Notes under the pieces: model-generated
What the model was told of the DNA's origin: nothing
The model's input: the letters and a program-made list of their open reading frames with translations, nothing else
Database searches by the model: none
Made by a program: the position numbers and the translations under genes
In this document: piece after piece, positions 20,315 through 27,032 of the stretch
How positions within the stretch are numbered: position 1 is the first letter of the stretch
Layout of the letters: each line of letters starts with the position of its first letter
From: Streptomyces sp. Go-475
Lineage (GTDB): Bacteria; Actinomycetota; Actinomycetes; Streptomycetales; Streptomycetaceae
Reading direction: 5' to 3'
Assembly: GCF_003330845.1 (NCBI RefSeq)
Contig: NZ_CP026121.1
Coordinates: 2,461,501 to 2,525,500, forward strand
DNA length: 64,000 bases

Positions 20315-20361
20315 GTGGGCGCGGACGGTTTCGAACCGCCGACATCCTGCTTGTAAGGCAG
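20315..20361. repeat. attL: 47-bp partial tRNA-Val copy
   Basis: Identical to 26960-27006. It contains the 3' half of the tRNA from the anticodon stem through the acceptor and discriminator, then diverges. The flank here does not encode CCA (the minus strand reads CCCACGGTA), which preserves the pre-integration chromosomal end of the tRNA gene. Confidence 0.9.
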
Positions 20362-20477
20362 TGCGACTAGCCAAGACTCTAACCAGGGACAACACCACTG
20401 GTCAACAACTCCCAAGCCATACAGGCAACTTGCCATGGACTACCTACTGAAGCTGCCTCCCCACCAGGGCATGAGTA

Positions 20478-20509
20478 GACCCCCTGGCCATCGGCGCAGT
20501 CAGGGGGTC
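20478..20509 (-). terminator. Hairpin downstream of the first element gene
   Basis: GACCCCCTG and CAGGGGGTC form a perfect 9-bp stem 18 bases past the stop of the minus-strand gene ending at 20527. The loop contains GCC and CGGCGC. Confidence 0.6.
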
Positions 20510-20526
20510 AGTCGTGGGGTGTCTCG

Positions 20527-20847
20527 TCAGTCAGCCGTCAGTTCCTCGGTCTCGTCGTCGCTCATAGCTGTCAGCCGCTCACCTCGGCACTCGGCTACCT
20601 CCGCGGCCTGATTCGCCCAGAAGCACATGGTGTAGAGAGACCGGATCAGTTGATCCTTGGTCGCCTTGGGGTTCATCACCAGAGCCATGGCCCGTTCGAC
20701 GTCCCTACGGGTCGACCTGAGGATGTTCTCTTCCCTGCCCTCTGCCAACCGCTGCATGACTCCCCCGGGCTGATAGAAGCCTGTCTTACCTGTGCCATCG
20801 GCCGGCATCCGTCGTAGCTCCGACTGCCCCTCTGGAATGATGCTCAT
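20527..20847 (-). CDS. Element hypothetical protein, 106 aa
   Basis: No family was recognised. The protein is soluble, with a polar N-terminus (GTGKTGFYQPGG), a charged helix (REENILRSTRRDVERAMALV), a helix with one Trp and Cys (SLYTMCFWANQAAEVAECRG) and an acidic end (SDDETEELTAD). AAGGAAGG lies upstream of the ATG. It is divergent from the GntR-type regulator across the palindrome at 20941, so it may share its control. Being next to attL, it could belong to the element's accessory end. Confidence 0.65.
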   Translation of the reverse strand: MSIIPEGQSELRRMPADGTGKTGFYQPGGVMQRLAEGREENILRSTRRDVERAMALVMNPKATKDQLIRSLYTMCFWANQAAEVAECRGERLTAMSDDETEELTAD

Positions 20848-20940
20848 GGGTCCGAACCTTCCTTCGGATCAAGGCCCCGGTGTCAGAGCTAGTCCCTCTG
20901 TCCGGGGCCGTTCTCTGTCTGAGCCGTCGAGTCTACGCAC

Positions 20941-20952
20941 ACTGTGCACAGT
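20941..20952. promoter_or_regulatory. Candidate operator: perfect 12-bp palindrome
   Basis: ACTGTGCACAGT is self-complementary and fits the GT-N-AC core of GntR-family operators. Related GTGCACAG/GCACAG pieces recur just downstream, between here and the regulator start at 21009. It lies between two divergent genes, as expected for autoregulation. Confidence 0.55.
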
Positions 20953-21008
20953 CCGCACAGCGTGCTACCCAAAGTGCTGAGTGCAGAGGGTGCACAGACC
21001 ATGAGGCC

Positions 21009-21215
21009 ATGGAATACGAGTGGCAGCGTGTGGCACGTGACCTTGAACAGAGGATCAATGCAGGCGAGATCCCCTCAGGTGGTCGGCTGGAGAACGAGAG
21101 GGAGCTAGCCGACAGGTACAGGGTCAGTGCTGGCACAGTCCGTAGGGCAGACAGGGACCTCAGGGAGAGAGGCTTGGTCGAAACCCTGCCAGCCAAGGGA
21201 ACGTTCGTCGTCTGA
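21009..21215 (+). CDS. Small GntR-type DNA-binding protein (KorSA-like)
   Basis: A 68-residue protein consisting only of a winged helix-turn-helix: WQRVARDLEQRINAGEIPSG, LENERELADRYRVSAGTVRR, then the wing GLVETLPAKGTFVV. The absence of an effector domain is typical of short GntR proteins in Streptomyces phages and integrative elements, where such regulators silence transfer or lytic genes. It is the only clear plus-strand gene of the element. The start ATG at 21009 has GAGG unusually close, so the exact start is slightly uncertain. Confidence 0.8.
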   Translation: MEYEWQRVARDLEQRINAGEIPSGGRLENERELADRYRVSAGTVRRADRDLRERGLVETLPAKGTFVV

Positions 21216-21511
21216 CGTTTCTATTGGGCCCTGGCTCCTGCCTCTGATGTCTCGTCTCGTGTCTGCTAACTGGCTTGTTGGTGTCGTTTCGCATGCCACC
21301 CATCTAAGGCAGGCCGGCATTGTCTGCGCCTGCCCAGGTATATACACACGCACACCCCCGGGGTAATGGGTAGAAAGGCATTCGGAGAACCCGCCGGGAG
21401 TCCTTGCATTCGATCGCGTACGGGTTTCAGACTTTTCCAAGATCTCAATGCCAAACACGAAAGCCGGGGACCCTGACAGCCAAAAAAGTTGCCAAAATCC
21501 CCGGGTATGTG
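21216..21511. other. Noncoding AT-richer gap within the element
   Basis: About 296 bases between two genes whose 3' ends face each other. Open frames here have no credible ribosome sites or composition. It holds an alternating TATATACACACGCACAC stretch near 21340 and GC palindromic bits (CCCCGGGG near 21356), with A-rich CCAAAAAAGTTGCCAAAA near 21480. These may contribute to termination on both strands. Confidence 0.5.
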
Positions 21512-25347: not shown

Positions 25348-25394
25348 ATCGGGGTACTGCCTATTCAGTTAGCGTCGCACGCAGTGCGCAGCGA

Positions 25395-25634
25395 CTATGC
25401 TTCGAACTCCAGTCGAGACACCATGTCGTCAACCCAAAGCCCTGTCAGGAACTCTGCGGCCTGCGCCTCGGTCATGGCTGCCGTTTGTGCGTAGACCTTG
25501 ACTGCTGCTGCCAGGGTCAGAACCCCTGCCTCCCAATACGCTCCGAGTGCGTTGACCAGTTCGGTCAACGTCTCCAACTGTCCTTCTTCCCAGTCAGACA
25601 GTTCCTCGCCATTCTCGTCTACGTAGAGCGACAT
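25395..25634 (-). CDS. Element small acidic protein, 79 aa
   Basis: Begins MSLYVDENGEELSDWEEGQL and continues with two or three helices (LETLTELVNALGAYWEAGV, AAAVKVYAQTAAMTEAQAAE). It is strongly acidic and could mimic DNA or bind a partner protein; no family is recognised. GAGGGAGA lies about ten bases before the ATG. Hairpins on both sides make it a single-gene transcript. Confidence 0.65.
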   Translation of the reverse strand: MSLYVDENGEELSDWEEGQLETLTELVNALGAYWEAGVLTLAAAVKVYAQTAAMTEAQAAEFLTGLWVDDMVSRLEFEA

Positions 25635-25660
25635 GCTAGGGTGTCTCCCTCTCACAGAGA

Positions 25661-25706
25661 GACAGAGGGCGTGTTGAAGTTTGGCGACTGAGGCACGCCC
25701 TCTGTC
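25661..25706 (-). terminator. 13-bp stem hairpin downstream of the integrase
   Basis: GACAGAGGGCGTG (25661-25673) and CACGCCCTCTGTC (25694-25706) are perfectly complementary. It lies between the integrase stop and the small acidic gene and probably ends integrase transcription. Confidence 0.75.
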
Positions 25707-25770
25707 ATGTCCAACAACGGTGTGTAGTGGTCTATTCCCGCCCGGGTGTGACCCTGGTCACTGCTGAGAG

Positions 25771-26823
25771 CTAGTACCGGTCGCCCATGCGCTTGACTGC
25801 CGTTACGGCCCTGGTTGTGGCCATGTCTGCGGCGTACCTGCGGAGCATGCTCGGGTCCTTCCAGCCGGCCACGGTCATGATGTCGCCCTCTGCCACTCCT
25901 GCTGACAGGAGATCATCGGCGAATGTGTGGCGGAACTGATGAGGACTTACCGAGTCGTATCCGGCATCCTTGGCACGCCGATTGATCATTCGGTAGAGAC
26001 CCGAGTATGTGAGGTGTCCGCGGTTCCTGCTGCCAAGCCAGAGCCACCCGCTGTCACTCAGCTTGTGGTGTTCCCTGGCCCTCAGGTACCGGGTCAGAGC
26101 AATGACTGTCTTGGGCTGCAACGGGATGATGCGGCCCTCTCCTGCCGCCCTGGCGTCCTTCAAGGGCACCACCTGCAAGAGGCCCTGATTCAGGTTGACG
26201 TACTCCAGTCGGAGTGACAGGAGTTCCTCTGCCCGCAGTCCTTCTGTCAGGACACGGATCATGGCATGGTCCCGAACCTTCTCGAACTCCCGAACCCTGG
26301 GGTGACCATTCCCGGTCACCTTAAGAAGGTCAGTGATGAAGTCCGAGGAGAGCGTCTTGGGCTTGCCCCCGGTGGGTGCGGAGTACCGCTGAAACTTCTT
26401 GTCCCGGTAGGGGTTGGGTACGTCGAACTCGTCTTCCAGCCATGAGAAGAACGTCCGGAGATTCCTCTGTACCGAGTTGGTACCGCCCCGGTCGTGGCTG
26501 TCGTAGTAGGCCCTGAAGAAATTGTTCACAGTGGCCGTGTCCAGGGCGGTGAAGTCGTCTTCCAGTCGTTCCCTGGTCATCCACTGTTCCAGGGCTCTGA
26601 CAGCCTCTACGTACGTCCTGACTGTCTTCTCTTGGTAGGGCCGACCGTGCTTGTTGTTCACGGTCCTCAGGTGAGTGGCGTACTCCGAGAGCATCACTGC
26701 ACGTTCCTCGGAACTGTGCTCCGTGGCGAGTACTGCGGTGACCGGTACGGCCCTGGTGTTCCTGGCCTTGGGTGCCGTGCTGCGGAGCGGGCTACGTCCC
26801 GCTACGGTGCTCTTGGCTGCCAT
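25771..26823 (-). CDS. Tyrosine recombinase (integrase)
   Basis: A complete 350-residue integrase with a SAM-like N-terminal core-binding domain (about 40-135) and a catalytic domain. The active-site set is intact: R197 (TEGLRAEEL), K222 (PLKDARAAG), H295 and R298 (HQFRHTF), W321 in place of the second His (AGWKDPSML) and nucleophile Y330 (MLRRYA). It recombines attP on the element with the 3' end of tRNA-Val. It reads away from the tRNA and adjoins candidate arm sites at 26850-26876. The terminator downstream isolates it. Confidence 0.93.
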   Translation of the reverse strand: MAAKSTVAGRSPLRSTAPKARNTRAVPVTAVLATEHSSEERAVMLSEYATHLRTVNNKHGRPYQEKTVRTYVEAVRALEQWMTRERLEDDFTALDTATVNNFFRAYYDSHDRGGTNSVQRNLRTFFSWLEDEFDVPNPYRDKKFQRYSAPTGGKPKTLSSDFITDLLKVTGNGHPRVREFEKVRDHAMIRVLTEGLRAEELLSLRLEYVNLNQGLLQVVPLKDARAAGEGRIIPLQPKTVIALTRYLRAREHHKLSDSGWLWLGSRNRGHLTYSGLYRMINRRAKDAGYDSVSPHQFRHTFADDLLSAGVAEGDIMTVAGWKDPSMLRRYAADMATTRAVTAVKRMGDRY

Positions 26824-26849
26824 GTGGTCTGACTCCCCTTGGTAGGGGT

Positions 26850-26876
26850 GCTAGGCAAGTCCTAGTCAGCTAGGCA
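26850..26876. repeat. Direct GCTAGGCA repeats, possible integrase arm sites
   Basis: GCTAGGCA occurs at 26850-26857 and 26869-26876, 19 bases apart, in the 137-base gap between the integrase start and attR. Nearby GACTAACACCCTTGGTTAGG adds an inverted TAAC/GTTA pair. Such short repeats by attP are typical recombinase or Xis arm sites. Confidence 0.45.
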
Positions 26877-26957
26877 TCTTGACTAACACCCTTGGTTAGG
26901 TGAGTCACACTGCTTTTGGTGGCCCCTCTTGCCTGTTCTTGCTGGTCAGAGGGGTCC

Positions 26958-27032
26958 TGGTGGGCGCGGACGGTTTCGAACCGCCGACATCCTGCTTGTA
27001 AGGCAGGCGCTCTACCCCTGAGCTACGCACCC
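26958..27032 (-). tRNA. tRNA-Val (anticodon UAC)
   Basis: A full cloverleaf can be drawn: acceptor GGGTGCG/CGCGCCC, D arm GCTC/GAGC, anticodon stem CCTGC/GCAGG with loop CTTACAA (anticodon TAC), five-base variable loop, and T arm GGCGG/CCGTC with loop TTCGAAA. Discriminator A is followed by encoded CCA. It is the integration target; its 3' end from the crossover onward is supplied by the element. Confidence 0.95.
26960..27006. repeat. attR: 47-bp repeat inside intact tRNA-Val
   Basis: Identical to 20315-20361, from the anticodon stem to the first C after the discriminator. The integrase gene begins 137 bases away. Confidence 0.9.

Follow-up and report, generated by a model that had tools for sequence, protein, structure and literature searches.

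Phage satellites of several kinds and one class of conjugative element are the closest described counterparts of a 6,645-bp element inserted at a tRNA-Val(TAC) gene of Streptomyces sp. Go-475, which was analysed within a stretch of 64,000 nucleotides (contig NZ_CP026121.1, positions 2,461,501 to 2,525,500; hereafter the window, whose coordinates are used throughout). Actinomycete integrative and conjugative elements (AICEs) of the pSAM2 type insert at tRNA genes and carry a GntR/KorSA-like regulator. SaPIbov5, one of the Staphylococcus aureus pathogenicity islands (SaPIs) that are tied to phages with a cohesive-end packaging site (cos), encodes a capsid-protein homologue, Ccm (PMC8569155). The phage-inducible chromosomal minimalist islands (PICMIs) of Vibrionaceae are about 6 kb long, have few genes and a single chromosomal place, rely on a helper and carry alpA and prim genes; their authors found no cos or pac site (PMC10803314). 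P4-like satellites use the helper terminase through cos and encode their own scaffold, Sid, which gives small heads, whereas MulchRoom and MiniFlayer encode terminase, portal and capsid, have genomes bounded by direct terminal repeats and exploit virulent BE phages; MulchRoom also has genes for a tyrosine integrase, a GntR-type helix-turn-helix (HTH) protein, a GIY-YIG nuclease and an Lsr2-like protein (PMC10690885). Small Streptomyces islands without transfer genes are often left unclassified, and many elements below 15 kb in a 2023 survey of actinobacterial prophages were only assumed to be satellites (PMC10023795). The present element is very probably a minimal cos-type satellite of Success-like Streptomyces phages.

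By its cos site, its attachment (att) repeats and its predicted gene content, the element is classed as a cos-type satellite and is not filed as a phage-inducible chromosomal island (PICI), PICMI, P4-like satellite, capsid-forming PICI (cf-PICI) or AICE. Like the cos-type SaPIs, it is chromosomal and tied to a cos phage, and its larger Streptomyces relatives likewise have a capsid homologue near cos. Unlike the SaPIs, the element was found to have no capsid homologue, primase or terminase gene; its cassette consists of a coiled-coil protein, cc261 (21512-22297, minus strand), and the 41-aa protein p41, encoded upstream of it (22306-22431, minus strand). Sequence kinship with these SaPIs was sought through family libraries only. 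The primase or Rep that SaPI-like PICIs encode was not found in the element, whereas a primase-like gene of the DUF3987 family is seen in 10 of the 11 larger relatives, and the capsid, portal and large terminase of cf-PICIs were not found among its scanned proteins. It resembles the PICMIs in size, in its few genes, in its single chromosomal place and in its presumed reliance on a helper, but has a cos site, with neither AlpA nor primase found. Library scans gave no match to the Sid, psu or alpha-primase families of P4-like satellites, and cc261 is assigned to no family. The predicted mode of action is that of cos-type satellites of the SaPI and P4 kinds, whose replication genes were not found in the element. 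MulchRoom and MiniFlayer share its host genus. TraB/FtsK and Rep, expected of an AICE, were not found (antisense open reading frames (ORFs) being left out of the scan), and the element carries a phage cos instead.

This packaging site was recognised in a noncoding stretch beyond cc261, about 80 bp of which are conserved in the window and in four small related elements, L006, L007, L008 and L018. An 81-nt query from L018 aligns with zero mismatches to the first 25 bases of Streptomyces phage Success (E 1e-3); the same query has a weak match (E 8) to bases 11-28 of 24 mycobacteriophage records. The last bases of Success supply the other half-site, so that the end-to-end junction of the phage reproduces the cos site. 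As a forward test, the record ends were read for three other phages with a Success-like scaffold: Ibantik and Ponzi have this site too, broken at the same position as in Success, and the record of Thermobifida phage P318 ends in a weaker version of it (19.1 bits, E 1e-6 in 600 bases). In a gapless alignment the phage end maps to about 21402|21403 in the window. A hidden Markov model (HMM) built from the junctions of Success, Ibantik and Ponzi alone, and thus independent of the element family, gives the window site (21356-21428) a score of 31.8 bits, with E 1.2e-7 over the set of loci searched. A second HMM, from 15 sites (the three phages, six IMG/VR contigs and six genome loci taken as prophages), scores it at 34.9 bits. 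When the element was re-drawn at random 300 times with first-order composition (2.0 Mb in total), the three-phage HMM scored at most 9.7 bits and the 15-site HMM at most 10.4 bits.

A calibrated model, R1, was built from 14 of the 15 sites (three phages, five IMG/VR contigs and six genome loci), that is, without the window and without any satellite carrying a cc261-type (cc) or capsid gene. Over the 8.57-Mb host genome, R1 finds one significant place, window positions 21358-21431 on the plus strand (E 2.1e-8), the next having an E-value of 0.14. A degenerate cos pattern allowing up to two mismatches was matched 12 times, in 10 of 392 Streptomyces genomes, and its backwards control not once; the window's own site is not among the matches. 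Seven IMG/VR contigs (45.6-60.0 kb) contain the exact sequence CCTTCCTTCSATCGTGTAC, and one of them starts at the cut. On these comparisons, 21358-21431 is the cos site of Success-type phages and is predicted to be cut. The first-pass annotation, which missed this site, had left the element as one of unknown type; the site ties it to Success-type phages, and the suggestion made there of a phage satellite is supported by the only significant phage cos in the host genome and by the existence of a family of elements that share its core. Through this noncoding mark, islands of this sort are linked to named phages whose recorded host is a laboratory strain, S. lividans, so that helper, packaging and interference become directly testable.

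Seven further Streptomyces elements have both this cos and cc261 but different integrases; four of the seven measure 4-6.7 kb. In L006 (S. muensis) and L007 (S. sp. S.PNR 29) the order is p86, XRE regulator, membrane protein, p41, cc261, noncoding stretch, GntR regulator and p106, as in the window; both begin with a large serine integrase, and two other small genes replace p225 and the nuclease of the window. One of these two is weakly like replication initiators (E 0.002) and has no counterpart in the window. In the elements of about 4 kb, L008 (S. triticisoli) and L018, the genes are a serine integrase and cc, together with the noncoding site; L008 also has GntR and p106, and L018 an XRE gene. 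Since the same core recurs in elements of 4-6.7 kb with other integrases, the present element is not a one-off decayed fragment. In pairwise comparisons, the ratio of nonsynonymous to synonymous substitution rates (dN/dS) is 0.20-0.27 for cc261; the membrane protein gives 0.16-0.30, p106 0.21-0.25, the 41-aa protein 0.13-0.49 and the integrase 0.17. With 12 of 13 gene comparisons below 0.3, and with small elements recurring with other integrases and targets, the small size looks maintained. By eye, L006 and L008 seem to share an insertion place marked by a short gene with the motif GAGKPLP, and L007 and L018 one that neighbours a flavin oxidoreductase. One genome (G085) has three sites of this cos type, in L018 (cc type), in the capsid-type satellite L184 and in a third locus, L183, whose serine integrase has 71% identity to the L018 enzyme.

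The cos model located 21 sites in 14 of 179 genomes, that of the window included. The 29 cos loci annotated comprise eight with cc, eight with a satellite capsid gene, two at contig ends and 11 that are probably prophages. The cc gene is present in the window, L006, L007, L008, L018, L019, L051 and L052, and a satellite-type capsid gene with an adjoining scaffold gene in L179 (whose capsid protein matches PHROG_267, E 6e-43), L184, L188, L217, L220, L221, L223 and L224; none of these 16 cos elements has both. The portal and large terminase of Success had no match in the stretches read of the eight capsid-type elements, which are apparently Ccm-like satellites; the papers listed do not describe them. 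These eight, together with L019, L051 and L052, make up the 11 larger elements. Besides their DUF3987 genes, an excisionase-like gene (xis) is present in eight of the 11, p225 in five, an Lsr2-domain gene in 10 and a terminase-like gene in five, the last label resting on Pfam Terminase_7 (E 5e-7) where the best PHROG is labelled minor tail protein. L184 has integrase, xis and flanking chromosome in common with L052, L019, L051 and L224 (81-83% DNA identity), and L052 and L224 are further alike in cos and in the regions of the terminase-like and primase-like genes (72-78%). The stretch from terminase to xis holds cc, the gene for a 56-aa protein, an XRE gene and p225 in L052, whereas L224 has capsid and scaffold there; the 56-aa gene of L019 is broken into two frames. 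The presence of a capsid gene or of an unrelated coiled-coil gene at one integration site amounts to a natural experiment on the takeover of heads by satellites.

In the element, cc261 and p41 occupy the position of the capsid and scaffold genes of the larger relatives. The 56-aa protein of L051, a longer counterpart of p41, matches the end of the head-scaffold family PHROG_2592 (positions 174-205 of 209, E 1e-5) and, in a comparison over 1,200 reading frames, the Success scaffold at its tail (E 7e-7). Because of this gene place, and because a scaffold-tail peptide precedes cc in relatives, cc261 with p41 probably diverts the head assembly of the helper. Counting cc261, its family has 40 members in the protein collection, and those for which an organism is given are from Streptomyces. 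With the cc261 alignment A1, eight of the 392 genomes, the host's among them, gave a match; one of these matches is marginal and was put down to chance. No match to cc261 was found in 50,697 phage records or in 72,556 plasmid records, and a pattern scan of IMG/VR gave none that was confirmed. Its structure model is confidently helical, with a mean predicted local distance difference test score (pLDDT) of 84.5, a predicted template modelling score (pTM) of 0.55 and one helix of 84 residues.

The element most likely spreads packed in virus particles, since it carries the packaging signal of those viruses. Upon infection by a helper phage it would excise and be copied to multimers, largely by helper functions, as no recognised replicase was found in it; the helper terminase would then cut at cos and pack the DNA into particles made by the helper. 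In the next cell, circularisation through the cohesive ends would be followed by integration. The predicted role of cc261 and p41 is to interfere with helper head assembly, a job that would fall to phage-type scaffold and capsid in the larger relatives, and the membrane protein and the XRE and GntR regulators would probably serve helper sensing or interference. A broader proposal is tentative and judged just short of evenly balanced: a new family of minimal satellites (4-7 kb, with larger relatives) that depend on a stolen Success-type cos, carry an exchangeable head-hijacking cassette and are replicated wholly by the helper. The exchangeable cassette of that proposal, put forward with the same slight reserve, would be either a stolen scaffold and capsid or a scaffold-tail-like peptide and a coiled-coil protein for which no phage homologue was found.

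Several observations weigh against the interpretation as a functioning cos-type satellite. The window site scores 34.9 bits with the 15-site HMM, against 42.6-59.3 bits for L006, L007, L008 and L018, although L051, L052 and L179 score similarly (35.0-36.5 bits). It differs from one consensus at seven of 39 core bases, six of them around the cut (differences elsewhere number one in L006, six in L007, seven in L018, 10 in L008 and six in Ibantik), and by eye it resembles two half-sites joined into one, which L006 and L007 have separately. The R1 sites from contigs and genomes were found by patterns from L018, L006 and Success, not from the window, and so R1 is not fully independent of the element family. 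A second significant cos was not found in the host genome by R1, and the large terminase of Success was unmatched there, a weak negative; together these indicate that there is no resident helper. No primase/Rep replication module was found among the scanned window proteins. The cc261 model matches generic coiled coils only and no recognised capsid-related fold. The p41 of the window shows the scaffold-tail motif, by a pattern drawn from these very sequences, with a score that is not significant, and the motif was not seen in L008 or L018. This copy may be active, conditionally active or recently disabled.

The low cos score would also suit an element that decayed from a Success-like prophage, or from a larger satellite, and kept its cos by chance. 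Such decay had been named by the first-pass annotation as the finding that would undo its proposal, and on this point the results are mixed. Larger cos satellites with primase-like, terminase-like and Lsr2 genes do exist; the same core is nevertheless present in L006 and L007 with other integrases and in the 4-kb versions L008 and L018, the element genes are open with dN/dS mostly below 0.3, as given above, and cc261 was not found in the phage records or IMG/VR, all of which makes decay improbable. The mobilizable island that the annotation had offered as the other option fares worse. A GntR regulator and a tRNA site are usual in actinobacterial integrative elements, and 15 loci with related integrases lack a cos of this type, as might suit an island of mobilizable or AICE type that a co-resident element spreads through TraB-type conjugation. 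The scanned proteins, however, gave no match to FtsK/TraB, relaxase or Rep families, and a phage cos, the only significant one in the genome, is not expected of such an island; mobilisation by conjugation is unsupported and most improbable.

A third explanation is a variant of the satellite interpretation rather than exclusive of it, and is quite possible if somewhat less than evenly likely: multimers of the element may be packed in full-size helper heads, with cc261 acting in replication or interference and not in capsid redirection. About eight copies would fit per full-size head (8 x 6,645 = 53,160, against 56.4-57.2 kb for the three phages), so that a capsid change is not required. A 6.1-kb PICMI packed as 8-copy concatemers without capsid genes provides a precedent (PMC10803314), and the lack of a recognised capsid-related fold in cc261 points the same way. 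The replacement of scaffold and capsid genes by cc in same-site relatives, and the scaffold-tail peptide that cc follows in L051 and L052, argue instead for a role of cc261 in head diversion.

An exact 47-bp repeat flanks the insertion, its distal copy at 20315-20361 forming the left end and its second copy, at 26960-27006, lying inside the tRNA-Val(TAC) gene (26958-27032, minus strand), which is left whole and is the sole tRNA gene that ARAGORN found in the window. A query of the two flanks joined (547 bp, joint at 247) was searched against 46 genomes. An empty site was found in two of them as a single alignment spanning the joint: in G009 over query positions 131-547 (434 bases, 86%) and in G026 over 151-396 (86%); in most of the remaining 44 little beyond the tRNA was matched. 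The tRNA-Val element of about 6.7 kb with exact att repeats, as annotated beforehand, is therefore confirmed. No third att copy was found in the window (38-bp core, up to three mismatches; chance expectation 0). The guanine-cytosine (GC) content is 0.52-0.62 inside the element and 0.65-0.78 around it (500-base windows), and the whole element is present once in the host genome. On contig C3 of G024 the tRNA-Val att core is matched four times in 11.5 kb (33022-44530), where several small elements may lie in tandem at this target, and G002, G007 and G021 also have an extra att-core copy nearby.

From the tRNA inwards, the minus strand encodes integrase, p86, p225, a GIY-YIG/MUG113 endonuclease, an XRE regulator, a membrane protein, p41 and cc261; beyond cc261 lie the noncoding stretch, the GntR gene on the plus strand and p106. 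The tyrosine integrase (25771-26823, minus strand) is, as annotated beforehand, complete: an open frame of 350 aa matching Pfam Phage_integrase (E 1e-22). The small conserved protein p86 (25395-25655, minus strand) has homologues that adjoin the integrase in L006 and L007. The Cys/His-rich p225 (24575-25252, minus strand), one of a family of seven proteins with itself included, is common to larger cos satellites (L051, L052, L179, L188 and L217). The endonuclease (23776-24291, minus strand) is of phage type (PHROG_17889, E 6e-31), and its gene is 79% identical over 77 bp of DNA to gene 1 of mycobacteriophages Scowl and GageAP. The XRE-type regulator (23132-23494, minus strand; likely start 23386) matches HTH_3 (E 2.6e-8). 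The membrane protein (22442-23128, minus strand) belongs to the family of Success gp8: frames in L088, L123 and L185 that have 52-59% identity to gp8 also align with the membrane protein along 107-126 residues at 39-42% identity (E 2e-20 to 6e-22). The p41 gene is conserved in L006 and L007. A conserved inverted repeat directly after the cc261 stop (21464-21504, minus strand), kept in L006 and L007 and not found in L008 and L018, may be either terminator-like or part of the packaging region. The short GntR-family regulator (21009-21215, plus strand; Pfam GntR, E 7e-15), which we take to be KorSA-like, has homologues of 74-85 aa in L006, L007 and L008; its ORF opens at 20880, and comparison with relatives makes 21009 the likely start. 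The conserved 106-aa protein p106 (20527-20847, minus strand) has homologues in the same three elements, with dN/dS of 0.24-0.25 against L006 and L008.

Rep, relaxase, FtsK/TraB and virion families were not found among nine gene products scanned with three libraries, or, with two libraries, for the 41-aa gene scanned as its 66-aa ORF. The family-library scans of the ten genes of the element likewise found no complete set of virion genes, in agreement with the absence of rep, tra and phage structural genes noted in the first-pass annotation. HTH_17, the domain of AlpA/Xis-type regulators, had no match among the window proteins, whereas L051 has one. Of the two domains named beforehand, MUG113 was upheld (27.9 bits against a Pfam cut-off of 22.3), but DUF2637 had no match in the element's protein, a related phage protein matching it weakly (15.6 against a cut-off of 22.8 bits). 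The tidy single-gene transcripts with U-tract terminators described there are not established, since terminator-like sites number seven against 3.8 +/- 2.2 in shuffles.

The integrase has matches at E<=1e-70 in 16 of the 392 genomes, its own included. The 15 related-integrase loci without this cos type in the model scan (L036-L050) have integrases 51-75% identical to that of the window, many of them beside tRNA-Arg, -Cys or -Ser; both ends were located for six (4.5-9.6 kb), and some carry DUF2637-like or GIY-YIG genes. To the right of the tRNA, four 54-nt repeats lie at 27697-27912 inside an ORF at 27232-28155. To the left of the element, the stretch 17400-20200 is slightly GC-poor and holds an XRE-like ORF (19881-20147) and small ORFs; it looks like the remains of an older mobile element at the same tRNA.

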